Assembly (NCBI RefSeq): GCF_029633915.1
Contig: NZ_CP091092.1
Span: forward strand, 186,001-250,000
DNA length: 64,000 nt
From: Methanomicrobium antiquum
GTDB taxonomy: Archaea > Halobacteriota > Methanomicrobia > Methanomicrobiales > Methanomicrobiaceae
Direction of reading: 5' to 3'
The notes under the pieces were generated by a model. It was given only the letters and a program-made list of their open reading frames with translations, did no database searches and was not told the DNA's origin. A program made the position numbers and the translations under genes. Positions 46,164 through 64,000 of the stretch are shown here, in pieces. The first letter of the stretch is position 1, and the number at the start of each line of letters is the position of its first letter.

Positions 46164-46198
46164 GATTTTCTTCTTCTCTTTTTTTTCTTTTTTATCAG

Positions 46199-47152
46199 TC
46201 AGAGATGTTCGCCAAAAAGCCCTGCGGCCTCAATACCTCTGTTTGCCCAGAGAACTGCTCCGAGTGCACCTATTCTGCCCTTACTTTTTGCAGAGTCGAT
46301 GTACTCTATGCCAAGTCTTTCGGCTTCTTTTTCGCACTCTTCTCTTGTCAGAATTTCAGTTTTTATTTTTTCAAGGAAGGGTGACTCAGGAAGGGAAAGT
46401 CCTCTTATAACCGCAATTCCGGTGTCTTTGCTTACAGCATTTTCTTCTATGAAGTCTCTGACAAATATTAAAAGTTCGTCAACCCTGTCCGGTCTTACTG
46501 CAAAGTTAAGGGCTGATCCCACGCAGTTTGTTGTTTTGTTCGGAACTTTCGGGTTTAGCTGAATAAGACGCATGTTTAGGTATTCAACACCTTCAATTTT
46601 GCAGGCCTCTGCACATTTGGAGGCTAAAACCCAGGTTGCACCGGATTCTTTTGTATCGGTGTCATCAATTCCTATTGAAATTTTGACATATTTTGGGCTT
46701 GTAATTTTTGTCCGGCATGTTCTTGCCCCTCCTGCTTTTAAGTCCTCTTCTGTTGGATAAACTGTTTTTAAAACTCCCGGTGCCTGAGGGAGGCAGACTG
46801 CAATACCTACACCCGCACCGGCAATTCCTGCCCATCCGGTTGTTACAAAATCACCTTCGACTTCGACACTTTCAAGCGCCTGTCCGCCGATATGTTCTCC
46901 TGCCGCACCAAAATTTATCGGATAGGTTCCAAGTTTTGCTGAAATTGTCATCGAAGCGCCTTCAACAGTGATTGCCTCAACTGCACCTCCTGCACGCCTC
47001 CTGTTCATGACATCCCATTCAATTGCACCTCTGTGACAGCACTGTTCTATTATTTCTGCTTTTTTTGCATCTTCATCTACAATTACGAGGAATTTTTTGC
47101 AAAACATCTGTCCATAGCGTTCTTTGACTTCAGAGGGTGTTAGTGTAATCAT
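46199..47152 (-). CDS. Second DDTD-motif protein, paralogue of the marker-11-like protein
   Basis: 317 residues from the ATG at 47152, preferred over the longest frame (47332) because GGTGA lies before it and because the extra N-terminus is not homologous to the neighbour. It has the same layout as the marker-11-like protein: VIVDEDAKKAEIIEQCCHRGAIEWD, then GIAGAGVGIAVCLPQAPGVL and ISIGIDDTDTKESGATWVLASKC, VPNKTTNCVGSALNFAV. It could be the marker-11 protein itself with the other as its duplicate; I cannot tell by eye. Function unknown. A hairpin-forming CCGAAA...TTTCGG repeat lies in its leader (47163-47188). Confidence 0.75.
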   Translation of the reverse strand: MITLTPSEVKERYGQMFCKKFLVIVDEDAKKAEIIEQCCHRGAIEWDVMNRRRAGGAVEAITVEGASMTISAKLGTYPINFGAAGEHIGGQALESVEVEGDFVTTGWAGIAGAGVGIAVCLPQAPGVLKTVYPTEEDLKAGGARTCRTKITSPKYVKISIGIDDTDTKESGATWVLASKCAEACKIEGVEYLNMRLIQLNPKVPNKTTNCVGSALNFAVRPDRVDELLIFVRDFIEENAVSKDTGIAVIRGLSLPESPFLEKIKTEILTREECEKEAERLGIEYIDSAKSKGRIGALGAVLWANRGIEAAGLFGEHL

Positions 47153-47364
47153 TACTTTGTCACCGAAAATTTCGTTGACAGAAATTTCGGCGGCATGATA
47201 TTTAATCTGTTTGATTGAGTGTAAATTATGCCTGACAGAGATGTCATGAAATATGGATTGAAACTGCATAAATAGTCCAAAACGAATGAATAAACAACTA
47301 TATGCAGAGTTAAAAAATACTAAACAACCCAATAAAAATTGATTTTTGATTTTTGATTTTTCAG

Positions 47365-48249
47365 TTACTGAAGAATCTCATGAAGGTGGAACTTGAACGG
47401 GCCTAAGTTTCCGCCGAAGTTTCCTGCTGAAATCAGTTTGATGCCCGGTATCATTGATGCCGCCATAATACCTGCTCTTGTGGCCTCACTTATTGACTCT
47501 TCATCGACACCATCAATAACGATTTCGTAAACTGCTTTTACGCCTTCAGGAACTTTTGTGTCTGCTACCTTGTCACGTATTGTCGGGCAGTACTTCTCGT
47601 TTGTTGTCGCAACCATGAATTTGTACTTGTTAGAGCCTACTTTTGAGCCTGATGCAACAACAGGGAATGAGCACATACATCCCGGAACTCCGGAGATTGC
47701 ATCTACTGCTGCGTCTGCCGCCATAAGCGCTGCGGGCTGGTTTTCACCCATTATAAAGAAGTTTCCGCCTGCAACACCCTTTACGATGCCGAAACTCTCT
47801 TCACCGATATATTCGCCGTTCATGATGGGGATTGCCCAGCACTTGCGCCCGCCGACTTCCTTTTGGTATTCATATCCGTCACCGAAGAAGTGAAGCTTTA
47901 CATCAATTCTCTCTTCTGCGTCAGGCATACCGTCAAAGACTGCTGTTGTTGGCTGTGTTAAAACGCACTCCGCAAGGCGCTCTACGACCTGCTCTTTTAA
48001 CTTCTTCTTTCCGCCTGCAAAGAATAATACTGCAACTCCCGGCCTTCCGTCAGGTGTCTCCTCTGCTGAGAGAAACATTTCAATTCCTGCCTCACAGGGA
48101 CAGCCGATTGCTGATGTTGCAAATCCGGTGGCCTCTGTTGCGGCCTGAAATGCCCATTTTTCGTTGATTGCGGTAATAATTACTCTGCATGCCCAGTTTG
48201 GAAATGCTTCTGCATATTCGTTTTCAATTGTAACTCCGTTTAATTCCAT
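47365..48249 (-). CDS. ftr: Formylmethanofuran:tetrahydromethanopterin formyltransferase
   Basis: 294 residues, the length of characterised Ftr enzymes. Transfers the formyl group from formylmethanofuran to tetrahydromethanopterin, the second step of CO2 reduction, in the cytoplasm. The whole chain is recognisable: N-terminal IENEYAEAFPNWACRVIIT, the GCPCEAGIE block, FGDGYEYQKEVGGRKCWAIPIMNGEY in the middle, and C-terminal IKLISAGNFGGNLGPFKFHL. GAGGT precedes the ATG. It is divergent from the hdr-fwd operon, with about 1 kb between them. Confidence 0.96.
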   Translation of the reverse strand: MELNGVTIENEYAEAFPNWACRVIITAINEKWAFQAATEATGFATSAIGCPCEAGIEMFLSAEETPDGRPGVAVLFFAGGKKKLKEQVVERLAECVLTQPTTAVFDGMPDAEERIDVKLHFFGDGYEYQKEVGGRKCWAIPIMNGEYIGEESFGIVKGVAGGNFFIMGENQPAALMAADAAVDAISGVPGCMCSFPVVASGSKVGSNKYKFMVATTNEKYCPTIRDKVADTKVPEGVKAVYEIVIDGVDEESISEATRAGIMAASMIPGIKLISAGNFGGNLGPFKFHLHEILQ

Positions 48250-49562: not shown

Positions 49563-50729
49563 ATGAATACGCTTTTTCCAAAATACTCCCGAAGGCAGGA
49601 AGGCAACATTATAACAATGGAGCAGAAGCTCTTAAAACAGGTAAACAACCTTATTCTTGACAATGACAAGTGTACAGGCTGTGGTATCTGTTACGATTCC
49701 TGTCCTGAAGAGGCAATAAGTATTGGCCCTGTTGGTGCAGTCCGCAGAGGTTCTATTGAGTATGGTCAGTCAATATCAGTTGACGAGAAACAGTGTTCAT
49801 ATTGTGGCGTATGTGTCATAATGTGTCCATTTGGTGCACTTGATCTTAAAATTGATGGCGAGTCCAGATTACCAATCGCTGAGAATGAAGGTTTCCCTGT
49901 ATATGATAAAGTAGCCGAAATTAACGGAGAAAAATGTGTACAGTGTACTACCTGTGAAGACGTATGTCCACGTGATGCAATTATCCGTGATGTACCTGTA
50001 TTTGAAGGAAAAGATAAATCTGGCCTTAAAAAGGCACAGGCTCTTGCAGTCAACAACGAATTCAAATACAACGAAGATAAATGCACCTATTGTGGCCTTT
50101 GTGGTGAAATTTGTGCCGCAATAGATGTTGTCAGAAAGCCATTTTCAGCTGAAAGCGGCGTTCTTGACGGAGAAGTCAAATGGAATAAGGATCTTTGTGA
50201 CGGATGTCTGCTGTGTGTTGAGATTTGTCCTTCAGAGGCAATTGAGGTCCAGCGTGGCGAAGTTGCAAAGAAGCTTGGCAACAAAGGCAGTGTATCTATT
50301 GACAATGGTCCCTGCTGTACATGCCGTTGGTGTGCAGTTAACTGTCCAACAGAAGCAATTACAGTTGAAAAGATTTTTGAAGGAGATATTGAATTCCACG
50401 CAGAGAAATGTCCTGGAGGATGTTCTACCTGTATGGATATTTGCCCTGCAAATGCTATCTATATGCCTTCACCAAAGTCCCCTGGAGATATGCATGGAGA
50501 AATTGAGGCAAATATTGCTGTCAATAAGGATTTCTGCATACTCTGTGGAGTATGTGTTAATGCATGCCCTGGTGAGGATATAATTGTCATGAAGAGAACC
50601 GGCATTAAAGTAAAAGGCAAAGAGACTGACCTGTTCCTTAGGATTAAAGAGAAATTGCTTACAGAAAGGACTTCAAAAGTCAAAGAATCTGTAGAAACAG
50701 GCGAAGTTGAGCTTAAAAAGACGGTGTGA
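49563..50729 (+). CDS. fwdF: Polyferredoxin with eight 4Fe-4S motifs (FwdF-like)
   Basis: 388 residues. Eight cysteine motifs can be counted: CTGCGICYDSCP, CSYCGVCVIMCP, CVQCTTCEDVCP, CTYCGLCGEIC, CDGCLLCVEICP, CCTCRWCAVNCP, CPGGCSTCMDICP and CILCGVCVNACP. The fourth lacks the usual Pro and the seventh is spaced CxxxC. This is the composition of FwdF, which wires electrons between Hdr and Fwd in the hexameric or dodecameric complexes described for methanogens. The ATG at 49563 follows GAGGAG with a long gap; an internal ATG at 49617 is a possible alternative. The operon context supports a role as the electron wire between the two enzymes. Confidence 0.92.
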   Translation: MNTLFPKYSRRQEGNIITMEQKLLKQVNNLILDNDKCTGCGICYDSCPEEAISIGPVGAVRRGSIEYGQSISVDEKQCSYCGVCVIMCPFGALDLKIDGESRLPIAENEGFPVYDKVAEINGEKCVQCTTCEDVCPRDAIIRDVPVFEGKDKSGLKKAQALAVNNEFKYNEDKCTYCGLCGEICAAIDVVRKPFSAESGVLDGEVKWNKDLCDGCLLCVEICPSEAIEVQRGEVAKKLGNKGSVSIDNGPCCTCRWCAVNCPTEAITVEKIFEGDIEFHAEKCPGGCSTCMDICPANAIYMPSPKSPGDMHGEIEANIAVNKDFCILCGVCVNACPGEDIIVMKRTGIKVKGKETDLFLRIKEKLLTERTSKVKESVETGEVELKKTV

Positions 50730-50734
50730 TTTAA

Positions 50735-51313
50735 ATGGCAGTAGAGAAAAATTATGGAAATCCTGAACTTGAAAATAAGCTTAAGGACAGGTATTATTAC
50801 ACATCTGACTCCAGCAAGGACTTCAGTGCTGAAGTGAAGAAAATAAGCGGTACAATTTCACATATGTGTTACCAGTGCGGTACATGTACAGGCTCATGCC
50901 CGTCAGCACCAAGAAGCTCATACCGTATTCGTGTATTTATGAGAAGAGCAGTCTTAGGCCTTGAGGAAGAGGCATTAACAGATCCTGATCTCTGGCTCTG
51001 TACAACATGCTACTCCTGCACAGACCGCTGTCCGCGTGACATTGCACCAACCGATGTCATAATGGCAATGAGGAATCTTGCATTCAAGAGAGACATTGTT
51101 CCAAGAAACTTCCTCCAGACTGTCCAGCTTATTTATAAGACCGGACATGGAGTTCCAAACAACGATGTCAACCGTGCTGCACGTGAAAAACTTGGACTTC
51201 CAAGAAATCCACCGACAACAGATTCATATCCGGAATATCTTGACGGAATCAGGAAGATTATGGATCATTATAAGTTAAAAGAGAACGCTGACCGCATTCT
51301 TTCGGAGGAGTGA
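50735..51313 (+). CDS. hdrC: Heterodisulfide reductase subunit C
   Basis: 192 residues. Small Fe-S subunit linking HdrA to HdrB. The two 4Fe-4S motifs are CYQCGTCTGSCP (C45, C48, C51, C55) and CTTCYSCTDRCP (C89, C92, C95, C99). The rest is helical with the GHGVPNNDVNRAAREKLGLP region typical of archaeal HdrC. It begins 5 bases after the polyferredoxin gene and is followed by hdrB after 8 bases; GGAG precedes hdrB. Confidence 0.95.
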   Translation: MAVEKNYGNPELENKLKDRYYYTSDSSKDFSAEVKKISGTISHMCYQCGTCTGSCPSAPRSSYRIRVFMRRAVLGLEEEALTDPDLWLCTTCYSCTDRCPRDIAPTDVIMAMRNLAFKRDIVPRNFLQTVQLIYKTGHGVPNNDVNRAAREKLGLPRNPPTTDSYPEYLDGIRKIMDHYKLKENADRILSEE

Positions 51314-51321
51314 GTATATAA

Positions 51322-52227
51322 ATGGCTAAAAAATTTGAACACTCATATGCATTCTTCCTTGGCTGCATTGCTCCAAACCGCTATCCCGGCTGTGAGGCTT
51401 CAGCAATCAGGACAAGTGAAAAAGTAGGAATTGAGCTTCTTCCTTTGAAAGGAGCGAGCTGTTGTCCTGCCCCTGGTGCGTTTGGCTCTATTGACCTTAA
51501 TGTATGGTATGCAATGGCGGCAAGAAACCTCTGTCTGGCAGAGGAGATGAATAAAGATATTGCACTCATCTGCAACGGCTGCTACAAATCAATCTGGGAA
51601 GTAAACCACAAATTAAAGCACAACGATGAACTTCGTGACGGTGTAAATGAGGTCCTCTCAGAAATTGATATGGAATTTAAAGGTTCAGTCGATGTCTGGC
51701 ATCTTGCTGAACTATATTATGACGAAAAGATCTGTGGTGTTAAAAAACTTGCAGACAGCGTCATAAGACCTCTTACCGGAACAAAGGTTGCAGTCCACTA
51801 TGGATGCCACTTAATGAAGCCCGGAAAGGAGCGTCATTTTGGAGACACCGAAAATCCAATGTGGATGGAAGAGCTTGTAGGAGCACTTGGTGCAGAGCCT
51901 GTCCAGTACAGAAACAAGATGCAGTGCTGTGGTGCCGGCGGCGGTGTCAGAGGATATGATATTTTACACTCCCTTGACATCACAAACGAGAAGATGATCA
52001 ATCTTCGTGAAGCAGGCGCAGATGCATTAACAGAAGTCTGTCCGTTCTGTCAGCTTCAGTTTGACCGCGGTCAGATTGAGATCCAGCAGAACTTCGGACA
52101 AGTCTACAATCTGCCTGTTCTTCACTTCAATGAGCTCTTAGGTCTTGCACAGGGCATGACTCCTCAGGAACTCGCACTTGATCTTCATGCAATTGACTGC
52201 AAACCGTTTTTGGAGAAGATAATATAA
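51322..52227 (+). CDS. hdrB: Heterodisulfide reductase subunit B
   Basis: 301 residues. Catalytic subunit that reduces CoM-S-S-CoB at two noncubane 4Fe-4S clusters held by two CCG domains. The N-terminal domain has FFLGCIAPNRYPGCE, GASCCPAPGAFGS and LICNGCYKSI; the C-terminal domain has VHYGCHLMKPG, KMQCCGAGGGVRG and EVCPFCQLQFDRGQ. All cysteines needed for both clusters are in place. Directly followed by hdrA after 13 bases with AAGGAGG. Confidence 0.95.
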   Translation: MAKKFEHSYAFFLGCIAPNRYPGCEASAIRTSEKVGIELLPLKGASCCPAPGAFGSIDLNVWYAMAARNLCLAEEMNKDIALICNGCYKSIWEVNHKLKHNDELRDGVNEVLSEIDMEFKGSVDVWHLAELYYDEKICGVKKLADSVIRPLTGTKVAVHYGCHLMKPGKERHFGDTENPMWMEELVGALGAEPVQYRNKMQCCGAGGGVRGYDILHSLDITNEKMINLREAGADALTEVCPFCQLQFDRGQIEIQQNFGQVYNLPVLHFNELLGLAQGMTPQELALDLHAIDCKPFLEKII

Positions 52228-52240
52228 GGAGGACTAATAT

Positions 52241-54268
52241 ATGGCAGAAAATCAGAAACCAAGAATTGGTGTATTCCTTTGCCACTGCGGTACAAACATC
52301 GCAGGTTCGTTATCAATAGATGATGTAATGGAATACGCAAAAAGCCTCCCTGATGTTGTAGTTGCTGACCAGTACCAGTATATGTGTTCAACACCTGGTC
52401 AGAACAAAATCATCGATGCAATCAAAGAGCATGACTTAAACGGAATTGTTGTAGCCGCATGTTCCCCTCGTTTGCACGAACCTACATTCAGAACTGCAAC
52501 AGCTGAAGGTGGTCTTAACAAATTCCGCTTTGAGATGGCAAACATCCGTGATCAGAACTCATGGGTTCACATGCATGACTGGGAAGGTTCAACAGAAAAG
52601 GCTAAAGATCAGGTCAGAATTGCAGTTGCAAAAGCAAGACTCTTAGAAGACCTTCAGCCAAAAAGTGTGCCTGTCGAGCACGCGGCATTGGTTGTCGGTG
52701 CAGGTGTCGGCGGTATGCAGGCGGCGCTTGACCTTGCAAACGCAGGAATCAAGACATATCTTGTAGAAAAAGATCCGACAATCGGTGGAAGAATGTCACA
52801 GCTTGACAAGACTTTCCCGACACTTGACTGTTCACAGTGTATCTTAACACCAAAGATGGTGGATGCAGGACGTCACCCAAACATCATCTTAAAGACCTAC
52901 ACAGAAGTTGAAAATGTAGAAGGATACATTGGAAACTTTGAGATAACCCTCCGTAAAAAAGCACGTGGTACATACGACGGTGCTGAGATGAAGGCGGCCG
53001 GAATCGAAGGTTCCGGATGTAACGGCTGTGGTGACTGTGCAGAGGTATGCCCTGTAATCAAGCCAAATCCCTTCGAGATGGGAATGGCGCCAAGAAAGGC
53101 AATTTACATATACCACCCGCAGGTTATGCCGCTTCAGTACACAATTGACTTTGAATCGTGTGTAAAATGTGGTCTTTGTAAAGAGATCTGTGGTCCGGAG
53201 AAGAATGCAATCAATCTGGATATGGCAGATGAACTTGAAAAAGTAAAGGTAGGATGTGTCATTCTTGCAACAGGATATGATTTGATTCCAATCGAAGACA
53301 AGACTGAATGGGGTTACAAGAGATACGAAAACGTAATCACCGGTCTTGAATTTGAGCGTTTAATCTGTGCATCTGGGCCGACAGGCGGACACTTAATACG
53401 CCCGTCTGACGGAGTCACACCGATGAAAGTCGGATTTGTACTTTGTGCAGGTTCAAGAGACAACACCGGCGGAGTTGCAAAACCATACTGTTCCAGATTC
53501 TGTTGCATGTATTCACTAAAGCATGCTCACCAGGTAATGGAGAAGATTCCGGGATGTCAGCCATACATCTTCTATATGGATATCAGATCCTTTGGAAAGA
53601 TGTACGAAGAGTTCTACTATCGTATCCAGAATGAGGGATGTAAATTCATCCGCGGACGTGTTTCATCTATCAGAGAAGATCCTGTCACAAAGAATGTATC
53701 TGTGTTGACAGAAGACACATTACTTGGAAGGCCGGTCACAGTAGAATGTGATATGGTAGTCCTTGCGGCAGCAATTCAGCCAAAGCCTGATGCAGAGCGT
53801 ATTCGCCAGATGTTTGGTATTTCAAAGTCCCAGGACGGATGGTACCTTGAGGCACACCCGAAATTAAACCCTTGCGGTACAACAACAGCAGGTATTTTCC
53901 TTGCAGGTGTATGCCAGGGACCAAAGGATATCCCTGACACAGTAGCACAGGCAGAAGGAGCGGCATCTGCGGCAAGCATTCCTATTCACCAGGGTGAAGT
54001 TCAGCTTGAGCCTTACTTTGCACAGTGTGTAGAGGAGCTTTGTGCAGGATGTGGAATGTGTGTTCCACAATGTCCATACAGTGCCCTATCATTAATTGAA
54101 AAAGACGGAAGACAGGTTATGACAGTAACCGAAGCAAAATGCAAAGGATGCGGTACATGCGGAGGATTCTGCCCAGGTGGAGCAATTCGTATGCAGCACT
54201 TCACAAGTCCCCAGATTGTTGCACAGATTGATGCATTTTTACTTGGCGGACGCGGAGGTGAACAGTAA
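52241..54268 (+). CDS. hdrA: Heterodisulfide reductase subunit A
   Basis: 675 residues. Flavin-bifurcating subunit that splits electrons between ferredoxin and HdrB. The N-terminal Fe-S part has FLCHCGTNIAG and YMCSTPGQNKI; the FAD domain has VVGAGVGGMQAALDLANAGI and GGRMSQLDKTFPTLDCSQCIL; an inserted ferredoxin domain shows CNGCGDCAEVCP and CVKCGLCKEICG; the C-terminal ferredoxin domain shows CAGCGMCVPQCP and CKGCGTCGGFCP. A YCSRFCCMYSLKHA motif with Cys is intact, where some methanococci encode selenocysteine. It is separated from mvhD by less than a codon (the stop and start overlap). Confidence 0.96.
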   Translation: MAENQKPRIGVFLCHCGTNIAGSLSIDDVMEYAKSLPDVVVADQYQYMCSTPGQNKIIDAIKEHDLNGIVVAACSPRLHEPTFRTATAEGGLNKFRFEMANIRDQNSWVHMHDWEGSTEKAKDQVRIAVAKARLLEDLQPKSVPVEHAALVVGAGVGGMQAALDLANAGIKTYLVEKDPTIGGRMSQLDKTFPTLDCSQCILTPKMVDAGRHPNIILKTYTEVENVEGYIGNFEITLRKKARGTYDGAEMKAAGIEGSGCNGCGDCAEVCPVIKPNPFEMGMAPRKAIYIYHPQVMPLQYTIDFESCVKCGLCKEICGPEKNAINLDMADELEKVKVGCVILATGYDLIPIEDKTEWGYKRYENVITGLEFERLICASGPTGGHLIRPSDGVTPMKVGFVLCAGSRDNTGGVAKPYCSRFCCMYSLKHAHQVMEKIPGCQPYIFYMDIRSFGKMYEEFYYRIQNEGCKFIRGRVSSIREDPVTKNVSVLTEDTLLGRPVTVECDMVVLAAAIQPKPDAERIRQMFGISKSQDGWYLEAHPKLNPCGTTTAGIFLAGVCQGPKDIPDTVAQAEGAASAASIPIHQGEVQLEPYFAQCVEELCAGCGMCVPQCPYSALSLIEKDGRQVMTVTEAKCKGCGTCGGFCPGGAIRMQHFTSPQIVAQIDAFLLGGRGGEQ

Positions 54269-54693
54269 TGGCAGAAGGAGATTGGAGACCTAAGATTATT
54301 GCAATTATATGTAACTGGTGTTCATACGCCGGTGCAGATCTTGCAGGTGGAGCACGTATCCAGTACCCGCCGGATATCCGTGCAATACGTGTAATGTGTA
54401 CCGGACGTGTAGATCCCCTTTTCATCATGAAAGCATTTCAGGATGGAGCAGACGGAGTCTTAGTATCCGGATGCCACTTCGGTGACTGCCATTACCTTGA
54501 AGGAAATTACAAATGCGCAAAACGCATGTTCCTTGTCAAAAATGTTCTCAAAAATATCGGTATTGACGATAAGAGACTTAGAATGACATTCGTTTCAGCA
54601 TCAGAAGGTGCAAAATGGGGTCATGTTATGGAAGATGTCGTAAAGACTGTAAATGAACTGGGTCCAAGCCCGCTGACCGAGAGAAAGGACTAA
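54268..54693 (+). CDS. mvhD: MvhD/FrhD-type 2Fe-2S electron-transfer subunit
   Basis: 141 residues. Passes electrons from a hydrogenase or formate dehydrogenase to HdrA. The five conserved Cys (C15, C18, C44, C69, C74) in CNWCSYAGAD, MCTGRVDP and VSGCHFGDCHYLEGN make up the 2Fe-2S site region of the family. The stop of hdrA and this start share one base. No hydrogenase (mvhAG) or formate dehydrogenase (fdhAB) genes are found in the window, so the electron donor is encoded elsewhere. Confidence 0.95.
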   Translation: MAEGDWRPKIIAIICNWCSYAGADLAGGARIQYPPDIRAIRVMCTGRVDPLFIMKAFQDGADGVLVSGCHFGDCHYLEGNYKCAKRMFLVKNVLKNIGIDDKRLRMTFVSASEGAKWGHVMEDVVKTVNELGPSPLTERKD

Positions 54694-54719
54694 TCTCAAT
54701 AATTTTTTAGGTGATAATT

Positions 54720-55118
54720 GTGGCAGAAAAAATTGAATTAAACCTTATATCGGGCAGGACTATTCAGCAGGGAGTATCTATGGAGGCAGGCAAGGAAAAG
54801 CCGGCCTACCGTGATGCCTGTGGTATTATTGAGCTAAACGCTGCTGATATCAAAAAACTTGGCATATGGCAGGGATCAAATGTCCGTGTTACAAGTCTGT
54901 ATGGTACAGTTGTAGTAAAGGCAATTGAAGGATTACAGAAGGTTGACGAAGGTATGGGCTGGATCCCTATGGGCCCGTGGGCCAACCGTGTAATCAACCC
55001 AAATACCTACTCAACAGGCATGCCGACATTCAAAGGTGTGATGGTCAGTGTCACACCTGAACCAAGTGGAAAGGTACTCAGTTCACTGGAAGTAATTGAG
55101 GAAGGGCTTGCTCTATAA
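54720..55118 (+). CDS. fwdD: Formylmethanofuran dehydrogenase subunit D
   Basis: 132 residues from GTG at 54720, chosen because AGGTGAT lies just upstream and an earlier GTG at 54711 falls inside it. The molybdopterin-dinucleotide binding domain of the DMSO-reductase family is recognisable: NAADIKKLGIWQGSNVRVTS, YGTVVVKAIE and MGPWANRVINPNTYSTGMPTFKGV. It covers the pterin of the FwdB active site. It is followed by fwdB after 12 bases. Confidence 0.93.
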   Translation: MAEKIELNLISGRTIQQGVSMEAGKEKPAYRDACGIIELNAADIKKLGIWQGSNVRVTSLYGTVVVKAIEGLQKVDEGMGWIPMGPWANRVINPNTYSTGMPTFKGVMVSVTPEPSGKVLSSLEVIEEGLAL

Positions 55119-55130
55119 GGTGATGTAAAT

Positions 55131-56444
55131 ATGTCAAAAATAATAACCGATGTGGTATGTCCGTTTTGCGGCACGCTTTGTGATGATCTTGAAGTCACTG
55201 TATCAGATGACGGCAAGAAACTTATTGACGTAAGCAATGCGTGTGCAATCGGTGCCATGAAATTCCTCCATTCCCAGGCAGAAGATCGTTTGACAAAGCC
55301 GCGTATGAGAAATGAGGATGGTTCATGGAGGGACGTATCCTATGAAGAGGCCGCTGATTTTACAGCAAATATGCTTGCAAACTCAAAAAAGCCTCTTATG
55401 TACGGGTGGAGTTCAACAAACTGTGAAGCCCAGAGTGTTGGTTCAACAATTGGAGAACTTATTGGCGCACAGATGGACAACACTGCGACAGTATGTCACG
55501 GTACAACTTTAATTGCTGTACAGGATGTCGGTGTACCAAGCTGTACTTTAGGTGAGGTAAAAAACCGTGCTGATATGATTATCTACTGGGGAGGAAACCC
55601 TGCGCATGCACATCCAAGACACATGAGCAGATATTCAATGTATCCGCGTGGTTTTTTCACAGCAAAAGGACACAGAGGAAGAACCCTTGTTGTAGTTGAT
55701 CCAAGAGACACAGACTCTGCAAGTCTTGCAGATATCCATCTTAAAGTTGAGCAGGGAAGAGATTACGAACTTTTAAGTGCACTTCGTGTTGCCTTCCGCG
55801 GCGAGGTTTTACCAGACTTTGTTGCAGGAATACCCAAAGAGAAGATCTACGAAGTTGCAGAAAAGATGAAGGTCGCAAGATTTGGTGTAATTTTCTTTGG
55901 AATGGGTGTAACACAGACTCTCTCAAAGAATCATAACATTGATATTGCAATTCAGGTAACACGTGACCTTAATGAATACACAAAGTTCTGCATTATGCCA
56001 ATGCGTGGCCATTACAATGTTACCGGCTCCGGAGAGGTATGGGGATGGCAGTTCGGGTTCCCTTTCTGTGTAGATCTTTCAAGAGGTTTTGCACGTTATA
56101 ATCCGGGTGAGTCTTCTTCCAATGACCTGCTGGTTAGAGGAGAGCTTGACTCAGCATTCATTATTGGAAGTGATCCTGGTGCACACTTCCCGTTCGGATC
56201 TGTAAAGAAGATGAACGAGATTCCATGTGTCTGTGTTGATCCGCATATTACCCCGACAACAGTTGTTGCAGATCTTCACGTTCCTGTAGCTTTTGTCGGC
56301 GTTGAGGTAGGCGGCTGTGCATATAGAATGGACAGTGTTCCTATTGAGACAAAGAAAGTGGTTGACGCTCCTGAAGGAATGATTACAGATGAGGAGTTTT
56401 TGAAAATGGTTCTTGAACGCCTTCAGAAGATCAAGGGAGTGTGA
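55131..56444 (+). CDS. fwdB: Formylmethanofuran dehydrogenase subunit B
   Basis: 437 residues. Active-site subunit that binds tungsten- or molybdopterin and reduces CO2 to formate. The 4Fe-4S motif is CPFCGTLCDD plus NACAIG (C10, C13, C17, C38), and the metal-ligand Cys is C122 in TVCHGTT, a position that is selenocysteine in some methanogens. WGGNPAHAHPRHMSRY and MGRGHYNVTG-like MRGHYNVTGSGEVWGW follow as pterin contacts. Whether it uses W or Mo cannot be told from the sequence. Its last codon overlaps the leader of fwdA. Confidence 0.95.
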   Translation: MSKIITDVVCPFCGTLCDDLEVTVSDDGKKLIDVSNACAIGAMKFLHSQAEDRLTKPRMRNEDGSWRDVSYEEAADFTANMLANSKKPLMYGWSSTNCEAQSVGSTIGELIGAQMDNTATVCHGTTLIAVQDVGVPSCTLGEVKNRADMIIYWGGNPAHAHPRHMSRYSMYPRGFFTAKGHRGRTLVVVDPRDTDSASLADIHLKVEQGRDYELLSALRVAFRGEVLPDFVAGIPKEKIYEVAEKMKVARFGVIFFGMGVTQTLSKNHNIDIAIQVTRDLNEYTKFCIMPMRGHYNVTGSGEVWGWQFGFPFCVDLSRGFARYNPGESSSNDLLVRGELDSAFIIGSDPGAHFPFGSVKKMNEIPCVCVDPHITPTTVVADLHVPVAFVGVEVGGCAYRMDSVPIETKKVVDAPEGMITDEEFLKMVLERLQKIKGV

Positions 56445-56449
56445 TATCC

Positions 56450-58162
56450 ATGGCTGATTATATTATTAAAAACGGATTTGTTGTTGACCCGTCACTTGGT
56501 GTCAACTGTGAAAAGATGGATGTTGCCGTAAAGAACGGTAAGATTGTAGATGCTTCTGAAGTAAAAAGCCCCAAGACAATTGATGCCTCCGGCATGGTTG
56601 TAATGGCAGGCGCAGTTGATGTTCACTCCCATTCAGCAGGTCCTAAGGTTAATGTTGGAAGAAATTTCCGTCCGGAAGACAAACTCAATTATTACACTGC
56701 AAAGAAAGGCGTAAAACGTATGGAGTCTGGTTTTTCCGTACCGACTACTTTTTCGTCCGGCTACACATTTGCAAAGATGGGTTACGGCTTTGCAATGGAA
56801 GCAGCAATGCCTCCTCTTTATGCAAGACATGTTCATGAGGAGATAAGAGACACACCAATTATTGATGAGGGTGCTCTTCCTGTTCTTGGAAACAACTGGT
56901 TTGTAATGGAGTATCTCAAGAATCACGAAATTGAGAACACTGCAAGTTATATTGCATGGCTCCTTCGTGTGACAAAAGGATATGGTATAAAGTGCGTCAA
57001 CCCTGGCGGAACTGAAGCATGGGGATGGGGTATGAACTGTATCACACCTAATGATCCTGTTCCATACTTTGATGTAACTCCTAAAGAGATCATAAGAGGC
57101 TTAATTGAGGCAAATGAGTATCTCAGACTTCCGCATTCAATGCACCTTCATTCAAATTCACTGGGTGAGCCTGGAAATTACCAGATCACAATTGAATCAT
57201 TGAAGTGTGCTGAGGGAATTAAAGCAGATAATGACTTTGGCCGTGATCAGGTTCTGCACCATACACACCTGCAGTTCCATTCATACGGTGGCGAATCATA
57301 TGCATCAAAGTCTTTTGAGTCAAAATCAAAAGAAGTAATGGACTACGTCAACACAACAGATAATCTGACATTTGATATGGGTCAGGTCACACTTGATGAG
57401 ACCACAACAATGACTGCTGATGGTCCATTTGAGTATCATCTTTCACATATGAACAACCTGAAATGGGCAAACAAGGATGTTGAGCTGGAAACAGCCGCTG
57501 GTATTGTTCCGTTCATTTACAACCCAAACTCATTTATTGGTGTTGCGCAGTGGGCAATAGGTCTTGAACTTGCATTATATTGTAAGGACATGACAAAGTG
57601 TTATGTTACAACAGATGCACCAAATGCAGGTCCTATTCAGCGCTATCCGCGTGTAATTAAATGGCTTATGAGCTCTAAAGCACGTGAACAGATCCTGGAT
57701 GACTGCAAATACGGGGACTCAGTACGCTCACAGTGTTACATTGGTGAAATTGATCGTGAACTTTCACTTTATGAGATTGCACTGATGACACGTGTAGGAG
57801 CTTCAAAATGTCTTGGTCTTTCCAGCATGTTTGGTTCACTCAAACCTGGTATGGAAGGAGACGTGTCTGTTTATGCGTACAACCCTGAAACTGATGACGA
57901 CCCTGAAAAGATCGAGCAGGCATTTGGCAATGCAAGATACTTCATAAAGAGAGGAGAGCTCATCATCAACGAAGGAGAGATAATCAGCAATGGTAACAAG
58001 CGCACATTCTGGGTCAACCCGGGAATGGAGCTTACATCTCAGGTTGAGCGTGATGTAACAGAGCGCTTTAAGAAGTACTACACTGTTACACAGAACAACT
58101 ACGAGGTAAAAGAGCATCATTATATGCCAAACCCGTATGAGATTGAGGTAAAAGCTGTATAA
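56450..58162 (+). CDS. fwdA: Formylmethanofuran dehydrogenase subunit A
   Basis: 570 residues from ATG at 56450 (three earlier codons from GTG 56441 overlap fwdB). Amidohydrolase-type subunit that condenses formate with methanofuran. The zinc ligands H59 and H61 are in DVHSHS, the Lys expected to be carboxylated is in GIKCVNPGG, further ligands in LPHSMHLHSN and LHHTHLQFHSYGG, and the catalytic Asp in TTDAPNAGP. The rest aligns with the second fwdA at 60882 throughout. Followed by fwdC after 17 bases with TGGAGGT. Confidence 0.95.
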   Translation: MADYIIKNGFVVDPSLGVNCEKMDVAVKNGKIVDASEVKSPKTIDASGMVVMAGAVDVHSHSAGPKVNVGRNFRPEDKLNYYTAKKGVKRMESGFSVPTTFSSGYTFAKMGYGFAMEAAMPPLYARHVHEEIRDTPIIDEGALPVLGNNWFVMEYLKNHEIENTASYIAWLLRVTKGYGIKCVNPGGTEAWGWGMNCITPNDPVPYFDVTPKEIIRGLIEANEYLRLPHSMHLHSNSLGEPGNYQITIESLKCAEGIKADNDFGRDQVLHHTHLQFHSYGGESYASKSFESKSKEVMDYVNTTDNLTFDMGQVTLDETTTMTADGPFEYHLSHMNNLKWANKDVELETAAGIVPFIYNPNSFIGVAQWAIGLELALYCKDMTKCYVTTDAPNAGPIQRYPRVIKWLMSSKAREQILDDCKYGDSVRSQCYIGEIDRELSLYEIALMTRVGASKCLGLSSMFGSLKPGMEGDVSVYAYNPETDDDPEKIEQAFGNARYFIKRGELIINEGEIISNGNKRTFWVNPGMELTSQVERDVTERFKKYYTVTQNNYEVKEHHYMPNPYEIEVKAV

Positions 58163-58179
58163 TTTTGGAGGTTAAATAA

Positions 58180-58980
58180 ATGAACAAAGTAGAATTAACC
58201 ATTAAAAAGCAGCCGGAACTTTATCTTGAAGCAGACAATATCACCCCTGATGTATTTGCAGGAAAATCAGCCGATGACATAATGGCGCTCAATGTTTATG
58301 AGGGAAATGCAATTCATAAACTTGGAGATTTCTTCACAGTTGCAGGATCAGCCGGAGAGACAGCTGCAGATACTAAGATTATTGTTAAAGGCAATCTTGA
58401 ACGCGTAAAATGGATTGGCACAAAGATGACAGCCGGAGAGGTTGTTGTCGAAAGCAACATGGATATGTATGCAGGTGCTTTCATGGCAGGCGGAAAAATT
58501 CTCGTTAAAGGAAATGCGGGTCATTTCACCGGACTTGGTATGACCGGAGGAGAACTTCATGTTACAGGCAATGCAGGCAACTATCTTGGTGCAGCATACC
58601 GTGGTGACTGGCGTGGAATGCAAGGCGGCATTCTTCGTGTAGACGGCGATGCAGGTTCAGACGTTGGAACATTCATGCGTGGCGGTGAAATTATCATCGG
58701 CGGAAACACAGATGTCCATGTAGGAACTCACCAGGAAGGCGGAAAGATTGTTGTTAAAGGCAATCTGAAGAGCAAAGTCGGCGGACAGATGGTGAAGGGA
58801 GAAATAATTGTATTTGGAACCATTGATGTCATGATGCCCGGATTTGTGCACCGCGATAATGTCGATCTGGAAGTAGATGGCACCAAGGCTACCTTTAAGC
58901 GCTTTGAGGGTGATCTCGGCGAGAGACATCCAAAATCAAAAGGACAGGTAGTTTACGGTCAGTTATACATAAAACAATAA
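58180..58980 (+). CDS. fwdC: Formylmethanofuran dehydrogenase subunit C
   Basis: 266 residues. Right-handed beta-helix of repeating GG-x-I/V-x-V-x-G-x-A/T turns (for example GGKILVKGNAGHFTG, GGELHVTGNAGNYLG, GGEIIIGGNTDVHVG, GGKIVVKGNLKSKVG), the glutamate-synthase alpha C-terminal fold, which supports the complex and the FwdA-FwdB tunnel. It ends the plus-strand operon; beyond it is the left end of an insertion sequence 31 bases on. Confidence 0.94.
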   Translation: MNKVELTIKKQPELYLEADNITPDVFAGKSADDIMALNVYEGNAIHKLGDFFTVAGSAGETAADTKIIVKGNLERVKWIGTKMTAGEVVVESNMDMYAGAFMAGGKILVKGNAGHFTGLGMTGGELHVTGNAGNYLGAAYRGDWRGMQGGILRVDGDAGSDVGTFMRGGEIIIGGNTDVHVGTHQEGGKIVVKGNLKSKVGGQMVKGEIIVFGTIDVMMPGFVHRDNVDLEVDGTKATFKRFEGDLGERHPKSKGQVVYGQLYIKQ

Positions 58981-59011
58981 ATCTTTTTTTTTGATGTTTT
59001 TTATCTTTGTA

Positions 59012-59984
59012 GTATCCCGAATTCATTTTACATATATTAACCTTACGCATACATCCACCTCTGTGCATAGTTCATAATTCTTTCAGGAGGAAGTCTGTAG
59101 AAGAAGACGTTTGCAGGCTGATCATAATCCAGACTGCTATGAGGCTTTAATTCATTATGCCAACTAACTACAGCATCTATAGAGCCAAATTTTTCAACTC
59201 TTCCTTCAACTTCACCAAAGAATCTCTCTCTCTTTCCATTTGTCTGAGAATGATGAACTATGGCTCTAATCTGTTTAATGCCGTGAAATTCAAGGAATTT
59301 CTTAAAATTATGATCTGCTGTTTCAGAATTTCTTGCAGAGACAAACTGTGTTCCATTATCTGTTAAAATTTCTCTTGGAATTCCATATTGCTCAAATCCT
59401 GTTTCAAGAACTTTGATGGCATTCATTGTTGTTGGCCTGTCAAATACTCCATAACAGGTGACCAGACGGGAAGAATCATCAATAAATGCAACTAACCAGT
59501 AATCATTATTATTCAATTTAACCAGTTTCCAGTCACCCTGCCATAGAGACATTGAATGTTCTCTCTCATATCTAACCCATTTTCTCTGACGACGTTTTTT
59601 CATACAAATCTCAACCCTTCCATGATTCAGGAGAACTCTATAGATTGTGTTATGGGGAATATGGATTTTAGTCTCCTTTTCAATCTTGTTCTCTAAATGA
59701 CAGGGACCAACAGAATATTTGTCATGATATGAAAGAATGAGATTTTCAATCTCATAGGGAATTTCTCCTGGTTTTCTTCCAGGAGTTTTTGGATATGGAT
59801 ATTGTCCTGTTTTCTCGTAAGAGCTGATAATTTGATAAATTCTTTGTCTGGTTACGCTATGATATTCTGCAAGTTCCCTGACAGGTTTCCCTTTTTTCCA
59901 TTGACGAATGATCCCACGTATATCTCGTTCGGATAATTTGCCCACATCAATATATAAATCTGGTGTCAAATTATTTCGGGATAC
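59012..59984 (-). mobile_element. IS481-like insertion sequence
   Basis: About 973 bp with imperfect inverted repeats of 21 bp matching at 18 positions (59012-59032 and 59964-59984), each beginning GTATCCCGAA. One transposase gene lies on the minus strand. I see no clear target-site duplication. The element sits between the ends of two convergent fwd operons. Confidence 0.7.
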
Positions 59985-59987
59985 CAT
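59043..59987 (-). CDS. IS481-family DDE transposase
   Basis: 314 residues in the longest frame; the first few codons overlap the terminal repeat, so the true start may be the TTG at 59969 or the GTG at 59945. The N-terminal helix-turn-helix (VRELAEYHSVTRQRIYQIISSY) is followed by a linker with RQRKWVRYEREHSM and the rve integrase core with D in LVAFIDDSSRL, D in LTDNGTQF and E in HSQTNGKRERFFGEVEG. The reading frame is intact, so the element may be active. Confidence 0.9.
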   Translation of the reverse strand: MVSRNNLTPDLYIDVGKLSERDIRGIIRQWKKGKPVRELAEYHSVTRQRIYQIISSYEKTGQYPYPKTPGRKPGEIPYEIENLILSYHDKYSVGPCHLENKIEKETKIHIPHNTIYRVLLNHGRVEICMKKRRQRKWVRYEREHSMSLWQGDWKLVKLNNNDYWLVAFIDDSSRLVTCYGVFDRPTTMNAIKVLETGFEQYGIPREILTDNGTQFVSARNSETADHNFKKFLEFHGIKQIRAIVHHSQTNGKRERFFGEVEGRVEKFGSIDAVVSWHNELKPHSSLDYDQPANVFFYRLPPERIMNYAQRWMYA

Positions 59988-60099
59988 ACTGACGTAACTA
60001 ATGCAAAAACTTTTTTGATAATGATATTTTAAGAAATCAGAATGTGAGTATGGTAAATACTGGGTGAAGTATCAACTGGAAAAAAAGAATATTTAGGTA

Positions 60100-60885
60100 T
60101 TATTTAGTTTTTCGGTCCTGTTTTGCAACAAATATTTTGCCTTTATGGCTTCTGTTTGCATAATCTCCTTCGTAGACTATGAACTCTTTTTTGAAATCAG
60201 GGTTAAATACAGATTCTGTCTTTTTAAAAGTCGGAAGAATATCTTTTGCCTCTCCTAAAATATAGCATGTTCCTCCTCTCATGTTTGCACAGGGTGTATC
60301 GGTATTGCCATATATGGTTAATCCTCCTTTTAGCATTTCGGCACCTGGCATACTGCCTGCACTGCCTTTACAGATAATTTCTCCTCCTGCCATGAACTCT
60401 CCTATGAAATCACCTGCATTACCTTCAACTGTAATTTTTCCCCCAAGAATACCTGTTTTTTCTCCTCTGTATCCTGAGCCGCAATAATGGCCGGTATTTC
60501 TCCTGCATATAATCTCACCGCCTTTCATCTCACGGCCAAGCCATGAATCGGAATTCCCGCTGATTTCAATAACACCGCCGCTCATGAAATTTCCGCAGTG
60601 CATTCCGATATTTCCGTTGACAGTAATTTTTCCATCCTTCATGTATTCGCCGACACGCTTCACAAAAAAACAGTTACCATTAATTTCAATTTCAACATCT
60701 TTTTCAGAATCTGCTTTACCTGATGTTTTAACTTCAAAAATTTCCGAAATATTCTTTTCCCTGTTTCCACCCCATATCTTTATCTCCTCTGCTTCTTTTT
60801 CAAGAAAGGTGACAGGTGTTATGGCTTCAGCTTCAACCGGAATAAATGGATTTTTTCTGGGTTTAAGAGTCAGCTCAATTTTCAT
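60100..60885 (-). CDS. fwdC: Formylmethanofuran dehydrogenase subunit C, second copy
   Basis: 261 residues of the same beta-helix family as 58180-58980, with repeats such as DGKITVNGNIGMHCG, GGVIEISGNSDSWLG, GGEIICRRNTGHYCG and GGKITVEGNAGDFIG. The two FwdC proteins are clearly paralogous but far from identical. It overlaps the preceding fwdA by 4 bases and is the last gene of the minus-strand operon. The C-terminal end (HKGKIFVAKQDRKTK) is basic and differs from the first copy. Confidence 0.9.
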   Translation of the reverse strand: MKIELTLKPRKNPFIPVEAEAITPVTFLEKEAEEIKIWGGNREKNISEIFEVKTSGKADSEKDVEIEINGNCFFVKRVGEYMKDGKITVNGNIGMHCGNFMSGGVIEISGNSDSWLGREMKGGEIICRRNTGHYCGSGYRGEKTGILGGKITVEGNAGDFIGEFMAGGEIICKGSAGSMPGAEMLKGGLTIYGNTDTPCANMRGGTCYILGEAKDILPTFKKTESVFNPDFKKEFIVYEGDYANRSHKGKIFVAKQDRKTK

Positions 60886-62585
60886 AATTTCGTCTCCGTT
60901 TCAATGCAGATATTACGCTGATTCAAGTATGCCTCTTCAACAGGGTAATTTTCCATTGAGACAGAATAATAGCGCTCGAATTTCTTTATGAATTCAGGGT
61001 CTTTTGACATGTCATATTCATCAGGAATTTTTGGTTTCACCCAGATTGTCCTGTTGTTTCCGTTTAAGAGGCAATTCCCATCTCTTGAAATTACTCTTCC
61101 GCTTTTTATTGTATAGTCTGTTGAGGAAAATCCTTTGATAATTTTTTCATATTCTGCTGCCGGGTCAATATCATCAGTTTTTATCGGATATATTGCAATA
61201 TCGCCGTATGCACCTTCGCCAAGATGTCCCTTTCCAATTCCTGTTATTCCAAGAGCTTTTGCCTGTGCGGCTCTGGTCATCACAGCAATTTCATAAAAGT
61301 CCATTTCTCTGTCAAGTGACGGGAGGTGAACTCTGTTTTCTGTATTCGGATGAACCTTTGAAAATTCTTCATTTCTGTATCTGCTACTCATCAAAAGTGC
61401 AATAATTTCAGGATATTTGACAAATGGCGCACCGTTTGGATTGTCTGTTGCAAGCATACATTGCCAGGGGTTTTTAGCCATAAGAGCTAGTTCAAGCCCG
61501 ATAGACCACATGATGGAATTTACAAGATTTTTCCTTGAATAAAGTACAGGAATAATACCTGAGCCTGTTTCAAGCTCAACGTCATGATTACTCCATTTAT
61601 TGTTGTATAACCTGAACAGGTTAAATTCCATTGGACCATCAGCAGTCATTGTTGTTGTCTTTCCAAACATGACCTGACCCATATCAATTGCAATCTGTGG
61701 TTTTCTGTTCAGCATCCAAGCAACATCGTCTGATTTTGAGCAGAAATCGCTCCATTTTGTTCCACCGTATGAGTGAAACTGTACATGCGTCATGTAAAGC
61801 GTCTGGCGCTTGTCATTTAAATCAGGAGTTCTCTGCATTGTCTCAAGAGTGCATTTGTAGTTGCCGGGTTTTCCAAGATTGTTACAGTGAAGATGAACAG
61901 AATGTGGAAGATTTAAAAGTTCGTTTGCCTGTATCAGATAATCGATTATTTCAGCAGGTGTGATTCCGAAGTGGTCAATTTTCTGATGGATGCACCCGAC
62001 ATCCTTTCCCCAGCCCCACATCTCTGTCCCGCCGGGATTTGTAACTTTAACACCAAATCCTTTTACGGCCGCAAGTGTCCAGCCGACAACTGCCGCAACA
62101 CGTTTTAGGTCTTTATCAGCAACAGCCTCCATTACTGACCAGTTTCCGTCAAAGAGGGTGTTTGCCATTGTGTCCTGAAGAGATGTAAAGAAAAATTCTT
62201 CATGAGTGTGCCTTGCTTCAAGTGGTGCCATTGCACCTTCAAGTACTGTTGTATAACCAAGAGCACTGTATCTGTATGTATTTGCATAAACAGTCGGGAC
62301 ACTGTATCCAGAAACGGGATACATATAAGGCTGTGCCCGGCCGCGTCCTGCCCGCATATCTTCAGGACTCATATATCTGCCGAAATTCACTTTTGTACCG
62401 CAGATATGTGTGTGGGAATCTACCCCCCCCGGAAGTGTAAGACAGCCTTTTGCATCAACGACCTCAGCTGAACTTCCGACAGATTCGACAATCATTTTGT
62501 CTCTGATTGCGATATCCATGATCTCGCCTTTTATGTCATTAATCGGGTCGATGACATAGGCATTTTTTACAAGCAGTTCAGACAC
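60882..62585 (-). CDS. fwdA: Formylmethanofuran dehydrogenase subunit A, second copy
   Basis: 567 residues, homologous over its full length to 56450-58162. Zinc ligands H58 and H60 in DSHTHI, Lys in FGVKVTNPGG, LPHSVHLHCN, MTHVQFHSYGG and Asp in ATDNPNGAP are conserved, so it should be active. It overlaps fwdB by 8 bases at its start and fwdC by 4 at its end, tighter than the spacing in the plus-strand operon. Confidence 0.94.
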   Translation of the reverse strand: MSELLVKNAYVIDPINDIKGEIMDIAIRDKMIVESVGSSAEVVDAKGCLTLPGGVDSHTHICGTKVNFGRYMSPEDMRAGRGRAQPYMYPVSGYSVPTVYANTYRYSALGYTTVLEGAMAPLEARHTHEEFFFTSLQDTMANTLFDGNWSVMEAVADKDLKRVAAVVGWTLAAVKGFGVKVTNPGGTEMWGWGKDVGCIHQKIDHFGITPAEIIDYLIQANELLNLPHSVHLHCNNLGKPGNYKCTLETMQRTPDLNDKRQTLYMTHVQFHSYGGTKWSDFCSKSDDVAWMLNRKPQIAIDMGQVMFGKTTTMTADGPMEFNLFRLYNNKWSNHDVELETGSGIIPVLYSRKNLVNSIMWSIGLELALMAKNPWQCMLATDNPNGAPFVKYPEIIALLMSSRYRNEEFSKVHPNTENRVHLPSLDREMDFYEIAVMTRAAQAKALGITGIGKGHLGEGAYGDIAIYPIKTDDIDPAAEYEKIIKGFSSTDYTIKSGRVISRDGNCLLNGNNRTIWVKPKIPDEYDMSKDPEFIKKFERYYSVSMENYPVEEAYLNQRNICIETETKL

Positions 62586-63870
62586 TGTTTCTCATCTCCT
62601 GAATTTTTTCATATATCCTGCTTATTATGTCAGTATCGGTTGGAAAATCAGTCTCAATTATTTTTTTAGTTCTTAATGGAACACCATCCATACGATAGGC
62701 AGTCCCTGACGCTTCTATTCCTGTTATTGCAACAGGAATCTGAATGTCGCTGAAGAATGATGTGCAGTTTTTATGGGGGTCAATATGAATTACAGGAATG
62801 TTTGCCATGTGCTCTACACATTTTTTTGGCATATGTGCCGCCGGATCACTTGATACAATCATTAATGCGTCACATTCTTTTCTAAAAAGGATGTCGGCCG
62901 CTGTTGTCTCTCCGGGGTTATAGAATGGTATTCCTTTTGCAAAATCAACTGCATAGGGATACCCTGTCATCCATGTGAATACTTCGTTTGCCCCGTAAAC
63001 ATTCCAGTGTCCACGCATAGGGCTGATTGTGAATTTTGTGTGCCGTGAAAGCTCTTCTGTTAATTCAACGGCATTTCTGATATTCTTGTATTTGTGTCTG
63101 CTCATTGTAAGGCCAAGACCGAAGAATAAAGCTCCAAACTTTGCCCCTTTACACATTTCAACAATTCTTTTGAGTTGTGATTTGGAGACCCCTGACACCA
63201 TGTCGGGAATGATTTCATCTTCTCCTCTGACCATTGCTCTTAGAGCTGACAAAACTGCATAATCCCCGCCTTGTTCTATTTGAATGAACTCATCGGCGAT
63301 ATCGGATGACATCGTCTTTCTTACATCAACAACTATCAGTTTTCTTTCCCTGAATGCATTTTTTAAAAAGAATCCGTCCGCATATGTGGTGTAACGGCTC
63401 ATATGTCTTGGATGACTTTCAAGAGGGTTGCATCCCCAGTAGATAATAAGATCAGCCCGGTTTTTAACCTGGCCAAGTGTGCATCCCGGATGTCCCACCT
63501 CCTGAATTCCCATAATTGAGGGCCCGTGGCAGAGGGATGATGTATTGTCAATAACACCGCCAAGAAGCATGCAGAGATGAACACCTTTTGCCTGAGCTTC
63601 TCCCTGTGTTCCGCTCCAACCGAAAAAAAGAGGTCTTTGTGCATTATTTAAAATTTCAGCTGCATAAGTAACGGCTTCTTCATATCCTGTCTGTATTGTT
63701 TCATTTCCCCTCCTAATTACCGGACTTTGCAGTCTTTCTTTCCTTAAAAATTTGGCTTTTGCAAGTGAACAGCCATTGTCAACTCCTGTTATTTTTCCAT
63801 CTTCAATTGTAATTCCAAGATCATCACACAGACATCCGCAGAAAGGGCAGATAACATTTTTTTTCATCAT
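62578..63870 (-). CDS. fwdB: Formylmethanofuran dehydrogenase subunit B, second copy
   Basis: 430 residues. The cluster motif is CPFCGCLCDD with DNGCSLAKAK (C8, C11, C15, C34; an extra Cys at 13), and the metal-ligand Cys is C114 in SSLCHGPS. WGCNPLESHPRHMSRY replaces the WGGNPAHAHPRH of the first copy; MRGHWNVYGANEVFTW corresponds to the pterin loop. Differences around the active site may reflect use of the other metal (W versus Mo), but which copy uses which is unknown. The ATG overlaps the fwdD stop (ATGA). Confidence 0.93.
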   Translation of the reverse strand: MMKKNVICPFCGCLCDDLGITIEDGKITGVDNGCSLAKAKFLRKERLQSPVIRRGNETIQTGYEEAVTYAAEILNNAQRPLFFGWSGTQGEAQAKGVHLCMLLGGVIDNTSSLCHGPSIMGIQEVGHPGCTLGQVKNRADLIIYWGCNPLESHPRHMSRYTTYADGFFLKNAFRERKLIVVDVRKTMSSDIADEFIQIEQGGDYAVLSALRAMVRGEDEIIPDMVSGVSKSQLKRIVEMCKGAKFGALFFGLGLTMSRHKYKNIRNAVELTEELSRHTKFTISPMRGHWNVYGANEVFTWMTGYPYAVDFAKGIPFYNPGETTAADILFRKECDALMIVSSDPAAHMPKKCVEHMANIPVIHIDPHKNCTSFFSDIQIPVAITGIEASGTAYRMDGVPLRTKKIIETDFPTDTDIISRIYEKIQEMRNSV

Positions 63871-64000
63871 ATTTCCTGCCCTCCAATTTCCCTGAAGAGA
63901 TCAAAAACCGGTGAAATTTGTTTGTCTGTATGGGTTATCTCGACAACTGATGATTTATAATCAGGCATTCCTGTTCCATGTGTTTCATAAGGAATTATTT
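63867..64000 (-). CDS. fwdD: Formylmethanofuran dehydrogenase subunit D, second copy (partial)
   Basis: The last 43 codons and the TGA stop of a gene that continues beyond the right edge. The visible C-terminus has YETHGTGMPDYKSSVVEI, which matches the TYSTGMPTFKGVMVSV block of the first fwdD, then DLFREIGGQEI. The stop overlaps the fwdB start by 4 bases. Confidence 0.8.
   Translation of the reverse strand, partial: IIPYETHGTGMPDYKSSVVEITHTDKQISPVFDLFREIGGQEI

Follow-up and report, generated by a model that had tools for sequence, protein, structure and literature searches.

Two old formylmethanofuran dehydrogenase isoenzymes meet tail to tail in Methanomicrobium antiquum: a probable relocation of the eha-linked set

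A central question in hydrogenotrophic methanogens is which CO2-reducing enzyme takes part in electron bifurcation and which is tied to a membrane hydrogenase. The question arises in a 64,000-base window (bases 186001–250000) of the complete 2,438,126-base genome of Methanomicrobium antiquum (Methanomicrobiaceae), in which two sets of formylmethanofuran dehydrogenase genes, both complete in the order fwdD-fwdB-fwdA-fwdC, converge on an insertion sequence (IS). How did they come to face each other, and what does each of them do? We refer to the heterodisulfide reductase (Hdr)-linked fwdDBAC as the plus set and to the formerly eha-linked fwdDBAC as the minus set. The enzymes themselves are ordinary; their arrangement is real and inherited. 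Very probably, the locus holds two old isoenzymes with different electron supplies, the eha-linked cassette having been relocated next to the tail of the Hdr-linked operon.

Age of the two sets and their shared layout

Between the two sets of the window, protein identity amounts to 46% for FwdB, 40% for FwdA, 35% for FwdC and 32% for FwdD. In a FwdB tree of 67 sequences from this genome and its relatives, together with five solved structures, a plus clade and a minus clade were each strongly supported. The FwdA, FwdC and FwdD trees likewise required one change between plus and minus each, and SH-aLRT support was 100 for all four subunits. Both types occur order-wide in the Methanomicrobiales. 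Because a single, fully supported split recurs in four subunit trees and each type is spread across the order, the two sets are ancient paralogs. This agrees with an original prediction, made from the sequence of the window, that the sets had diverged as ancient isoenzymes and were not a recent duplication. The phylogeny proposed there as a check was run, and the two sets do not join in one species-specific clade, which excludes the outcome named as contrary to it.

The same prediction suggested that facing sets could undergo gene conversion. Identity between plus and minus FwdB within a genome was 46.4% where the sets are convergent, compared with 45.9% between genomes and 45.9% in genomes in which they are unlinked, and FwdA, FwdC and FwdD gave a similar pattern across linked and unlinked comparisons. 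Since within-genome identity is not raised, none of the four subunits carries a conversion signal in this comparison, and gene conversion was rejected.

The convergent layout is not restricted to the window. The arrangement fwdF-hdrCBA-mvhD-fwdDBAC, met tail to tail by a second fwdDBAC, was found in five genomes of three genera: the window genome (G000), a Methanomicrobiaceae metagenome-assembled genome of the same genus (G004), and G006, G011 and G016 from two further genera (the operon of G016 runs on into L052). The convergent loci are flanked by a formyltransferase gene (Ftr) beyond one end and, in all five, by two moeA genes beyond the minus set at the other. A family-wide search of 25 genomes yielded no further convergent pair. 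Shared by four more genomes, the layout is not due to chance.

This survey of the same locus in relatives, which the original prediction had also called for, bears directly on the role of the IS. The gaps of the four other loci (115–315 bp) contain no transposase, so the element in the window came late, into a gap that was already there, and is incidental to the layout. As the organiser or cause of the layout the IS was ruled out for the same reason. The genome contains one full copy of it and short end pieces at three other places; no target-site duplication is visible. The mirror-symmetric gene order with a transposase at its centre would fit a recent local inverted duplication, or a rearrangement driven by the IS, but sets that are only 32–46% identical, that belong to separate order-wide clades and that converge in four other genomes without a transposase make such an origin extremely improbable, and the trees already refute it.

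Each half of the pair probably ends in its own terminator. A T7–T9 tract begins 3–4 nt past the stop codon of plus fwdC in all five loci, and a minus-strand T-tract lies 12–24 nt past the stop of minus fwdC in four of them and 87 nt past it in the fifth; in the window, the IS was inserted between the two tracts. With T-tracts past both stop codons, head-on collision of transcripts, which the arrangement had been said to allow, is not supported as a notable consequence.

Electron supply and departure from eha

The plus operon proved larger than originally described. It starts at 49563 with fwdF, continues with hdrCBA and mvhD and reaches plus fwdD after a spacing of 17 nt. The genes fwdF, hdrABC and mvhD thus share one operon with fwdDBAC, the arrangement looked for in an Hdr-Fwd supercomplex, HdrA and HdrB being identified by conserved position and identity to relatives only. 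Such gene content is what an Hdr-Fwd bifurcating assembly would be expected to need. Gene clusters of hdr with fwd and Hdr-Fwd complexes are already known (PMC12054007, PMC12350162), and the best solved relative of plus FwdB is 7bkb_H of Methanospirillum hungatei (586 bits). The core subunits of the M. hungatei Fdh-Hdr-Fmd supercomplex (7BKB/7BKC), namely FwdF, HdrCBA, MvhD and FwdDBAC, are all encoded by the plus operon; unlike the supercomplex, however, the operon has no formate dehydrogenase gene, and the M. hungatei FwdB falls in a sister paralog clade. Most likely, the plus set would reduce CO2 as one end of an Hdr-Fwd supercomplex that bifurcates electrons like that of M. hungatei.

The minus type has a different home in most of the order. 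In the Methanomicrobiales inspected outside the clade discussed here, genes for the Eha small subunit, the Eha large subunit and a ferredoxin are followed by fwdD-B-A-C and then usually by cofE, with a conserved stretch of genes after it. The names Eha and CofE were assigned from the sequences in the light of family features and from PMC2686161. At this position, closing the eha operon, the minus-type isoenzyme would receive low-potential electrons from the membrane hydrogenase via ferredoxin. That eha adjoins formylmethanofuran dehydrogenase in three Methanomicrobiales was noted in 2009 (PMC2686161). The minus set of the window is of the same type as this eha-linked enzyme in all four subunits and keeps its D-B-A-C order, but it is detached from eha, has no upstream eha ferredoxin partner and lies beside moeA.

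The place it would have left can be seen. In G001, G004, G006, G007 (Methanoplanus petrolearius, of the same family) and G011, an intact eha operon passes directly from the ferredoxin gene to cofE, without fwd genes. In the window genome, eha lies at 1.13 Mb without fwd, and the minus set does not occupy the end of the eha operon. Directly behind the eha ferredoxin, where sister genomes have cofE, this genome has a 547-codon open reading frame (ORF; L124:7666-9309) that looks transposase-like by eye. A tree of six concatenated Eha proteins unites the genomes whose eha lacks fwd in one clade (100/99). Most simply read, the set was lost from eha once and arrived once beside the plus set, both in the ancestor of this clade. 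In the ancestor of the Methanomicrobiaceae subclade, the cassette would have left an eha operon that itself remained intact, and would have landed tail to tail with the plus set, with a promoter of its own and beside the two moeA genes. The pair would then have been inherited vertically with one terminator per half, and the lineage of the window would have gained its IS481-like element in the gap.

Some points weigh against this reading. The FwdB tree sets the relocated minus sets (seven sequences on a branch of their own) apart from the family; a grouping of the family in FwdB is neither shown nor rejected (AU p 0.285); and the minus set has no operon-mate ferredoxin, which makes its present electron donor a guess. 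The position of the seven sequences outside the other family members could also be taken to mean that the native copy linked to eha was lost, and that the minus set was then acquired horizontally from another methanogen and inserted beside the plus set. We consider such an acquisition unlikely: the AU result leaves the family grouping standing, the family stays together in the FwdA tree, albeit weakly, and all of the sequences remain within the minus clade of the Methanomicrobiales. Relocation of the native eha-linked cassette is the reading we retain. No FwdB other than the two of the window occurs anywhere in this genome.

Exchange of cassettes in relatives

The type of fwdDBAC behind Hdr also varies among close relatives. 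We use p' for the FwdB paralog that is sister to the plus type. At 22 of the 28 Hdr-linked loci compared, the plus type stands behind Hdr. Four congeners of the window genome (G001, G002, G003 and G005) have neither the plus nor the minus set; in these, p' (FwdB 56–57% identical) follows the same Hdr module, with HdrA 87–93% identical. Two genomes of one other genus, G038 and G028, carry after mvhD the plus type and p', respectively. In M. petrolearius, fwdF-hdrCBA-mvhD is tandemly doubled beside Ftr (L131:12-7900, L063:6375-19001); the copy proximal to Ftr has no fwd cassette and the other carries p'. The plus set of this genome is 0.8 Mb distant, and of the minus type only fwdD and fwdB come after it, co-directionally. 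Minus D-B is likewise co-directional behind the plus set in G013. In these two genomes the earlier suggestion of a rearrangement-prone locus is borne out, in a weak sense.

Judging from these comparisons, at least two exchanges of the cassette behind Hdr have most likely taken place. It is rather probable that fwdDBAC behind Hdr behaves as an exchangeable cartridge, joined at the mvhD/fwdD junction to an Hdr module that remains orthologous, with a different paralog present in part of the window's genus, in M. petrolearius and in one of the two genomes compared in another genus, and that the move of the eha set belongs to the same traffic. Transfer between genera of a whole block of Hdr plus paralog was tried as an explanation and rejected, as the disagreement seen in the Hdr tree falls short of significance (AU p 0.11). 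The literature searched, which was covered in part, gave no description of fwdDBAC cassettes being swapped or moved to new sites while the hdr and eha modules stay constant.

Subunits have moved between sets as well. The same four genomes of the window's genus have, elsewhere or adjoining p', a minus-like gene of 573–591 codons followed by FwdA; from its length this is a probable B-D fusion. Since the FwdA encoded beside this probable fusion clusters with that of the relocated minus sets (100/100), subunits have recombined between sets. Loci L064, L065, L067, L068, L070 and L092 have minus-like FwdB genes of 573–622 codons, by length also probable B-D fusions, that are mostly followed by FwdA without FwdC; some of them lie beside Mo/W transporter or moeA genes.

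The order-wide association of the two types with hdr and eha, and its breakdown in the subclade, amount to natural experiments across species. Close relatives combine the same Hdr module with different Fwd paralogs, and an Eha-type enzyme has been unhooked from Eha, so that the wiring becomes testable by comparing species.

The metal question, flanking genes and features of the window

From differences in the active-site loop of FwdB, the two sets had been proposed to be tungsten and molybdenum isoenzymes. Both proteins share one and the same metal-ligand Cys and nearby His (CHG and RGH columns aligned to 5T5I). The loop reads mostly NTATVCHG with T, S or P next in the plus clade (CHGT, CHGS and CHGP all occurring within it), mostly TSSxCHGPS or TTSxCHGPS in the minus clade and mostly NCASICHG in p'. 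CHGPS is common to both W structures and the Mo structure. The differences thus mark clades, a W or Mo assignment is unsupported by the sequence, and assigning the metal from a loop that varies within clades was rejected. According to a specialist review (PMC11656701), metal content cannot be assigned from sequence, and 7BKB is a Mo enzyme; 8RJA was predicted to contain Mo and found to contain W (PMC11493965).

The two sets might be W and Mo isoenzymes held side by side, letting the cell switch with metal supply. Plus FwdB is nearest to 7BKB (Mo) and minus FwdB to 8RJA (W), every convergent locus has two moeA genes on the far side of the minus set, and binding-protein genes (TupA-like, WtpA and ModA-like) follow moeA in the window genome, as Wtp genes do near the pair in G004. 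However, 7BKB belongs to p', the sister of the plus clade, and not to the plus clade proper; loop and ligands fail to separate W from Mo enzymes; the metal of 8RJA itself contradicted its prediction; and the stretches read around the pair in G006 and G011 showed no Mo/W transporters. We regard a W/Mo pair as possible, though less likely than not.

Two further known systems invite comparison. The W-dependent Fwd of Ca. Ethanoperedens thermophilum (8RJA, chain 8rja_B) is the closest solved relative of minus FwdB and joins the minus clade, but it has an F420-reducing FwdI (PMC11493965), and none was seen beside the minus set. Methanothermobacter also has two isoenzymes per genome, Fwd (W) and Fmd (Mo), yet they are encoded as fwdHFGDACB and fmdECB with a shared FwdA (PMC3087415), unlike the two complete sets of the window.

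All five convergent loci have the sequence CAAACCWTTAATT about 65–97 bp before minus fwdD, and no other site in the loci compared has it (L005:18252-18348 and the same place in L045, L047, L049 and L051, from five genomes in three genera). It may be part of an archaeal promoter or of an operator, possibly metal-responsive. A scan for bacterial promoters and terminators gave nothing above chance, archaeal signals being outside its coverage.

The features of the locus are listed in Table 1. All genes of the mirrored sets around the IS had been placed correctly in the original prediction, except that plus fwdD starts at 54711 (GTG) and not at 54720. FwdA, FwdB and FwdC of both sets score above the TIGR cut-offs; both FwdD proteins score below that of NF042908, and plus FwdD also matches PF01568.

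Table 1 Features of the convergent locus, in window coordinates. Cut-offs are 375 bits (curated) for NCBIfam FwdF, 175 bits for NF042908 and 224 bits for NF033577.
Feature	Position	Strand	Evidence and remarks
Ftr-like gene (formylmethanofuran:H4MPT formyltransferase)	47365..48249	-	ORF; neighbour kept in relatives
FwdF-like polyferredoxin, first operon gene	49563..50729	+	NCBIfam FwdF 241 bits (below cut-off); 388 aa; multiple 4Fe-4S domains
HdrC	50735..51313	+	TIGR03290 (CoB-CoM heterodisulfide reductase subunit C) 224 bits, above cut-off
HdrB	51322..52227	+	Position and order kept in relatives, 71-91% identity
HdrA, 675 aa	52241..54268	+	ORF; 77-94% identity to same-position gene in relatives
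MvhD/VhuD (FlpD domain)	54268..54693	+	PF02662 175 bits
Plus FwdD	54711..55118	+	NF042908 127 bits (below cut-off), PF01568; GTG start
Plus FwdB	55131..56444	+	TIGR03129 609 bits; metal-ligand Cys in NTATVCHGTT
Plus FwdA	56441..58162	+	TIGR03121 744 bits
Plus FwdC	58180..58980	+	TIGR03122 260 bits
T9 tract, likely terminator	58984..58992	+	3 nt past plus fwdC stop
Probable IS481-family element, 973 bp	59012..59984	-	10-bp perfect inverted ends GTATCCCGAA/TTCGGGATAC
Transposase ORF, apparently intact	59043-59987	-	Best NCBIfam match NF033577 (IS481 family), 198 bits (below cut-off); PF00665 (rve domain)
T7 tract, likely terminator	60079..60085	-	About 20 nt past minus fwdC stop
Minus FwdC	60100..60885	-	TIGR03122 245 bits
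Minus FwdA	60882..62585	-	TIGR03121 754 bits
Minus FwdB	62578..63870	-	TIGR03129 587 bits; metal-ligand Cys in NTSSLCHGPS
Minus FwdD	63867..64250	-	NF042908 95 bits (below cut-off); crosses window end at 64000 (L006:1868-2251)

Just outside the outer end of the plus operon, in divergent orientation, lies the gene at 47365..48249, a probable Ftr by family resemblance. Downstream of it on the minus strand, 42967-47332 holds what are presumably methanogenesis marker genes: two tandem homologs at about 45219-47332 and a radical-SAM-like gene at 44206.

Past the end of the window, an apparent Mo/W island (L006:2756-16574) comprises the two moeA genes, one with an extra C-terminal domain, the TupA-like, WtpA and ModA-like genes, and a possible MOT1-like permease without an NCBIfam match. 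In G004 and G006 (L045:17419-18241, L047:16102-17042), an extra gene of about 210 codons lies between moeA and minus fwdD. It resembles a membrane PH-domain protein, and the window genome seems to keep only a trace of its end.

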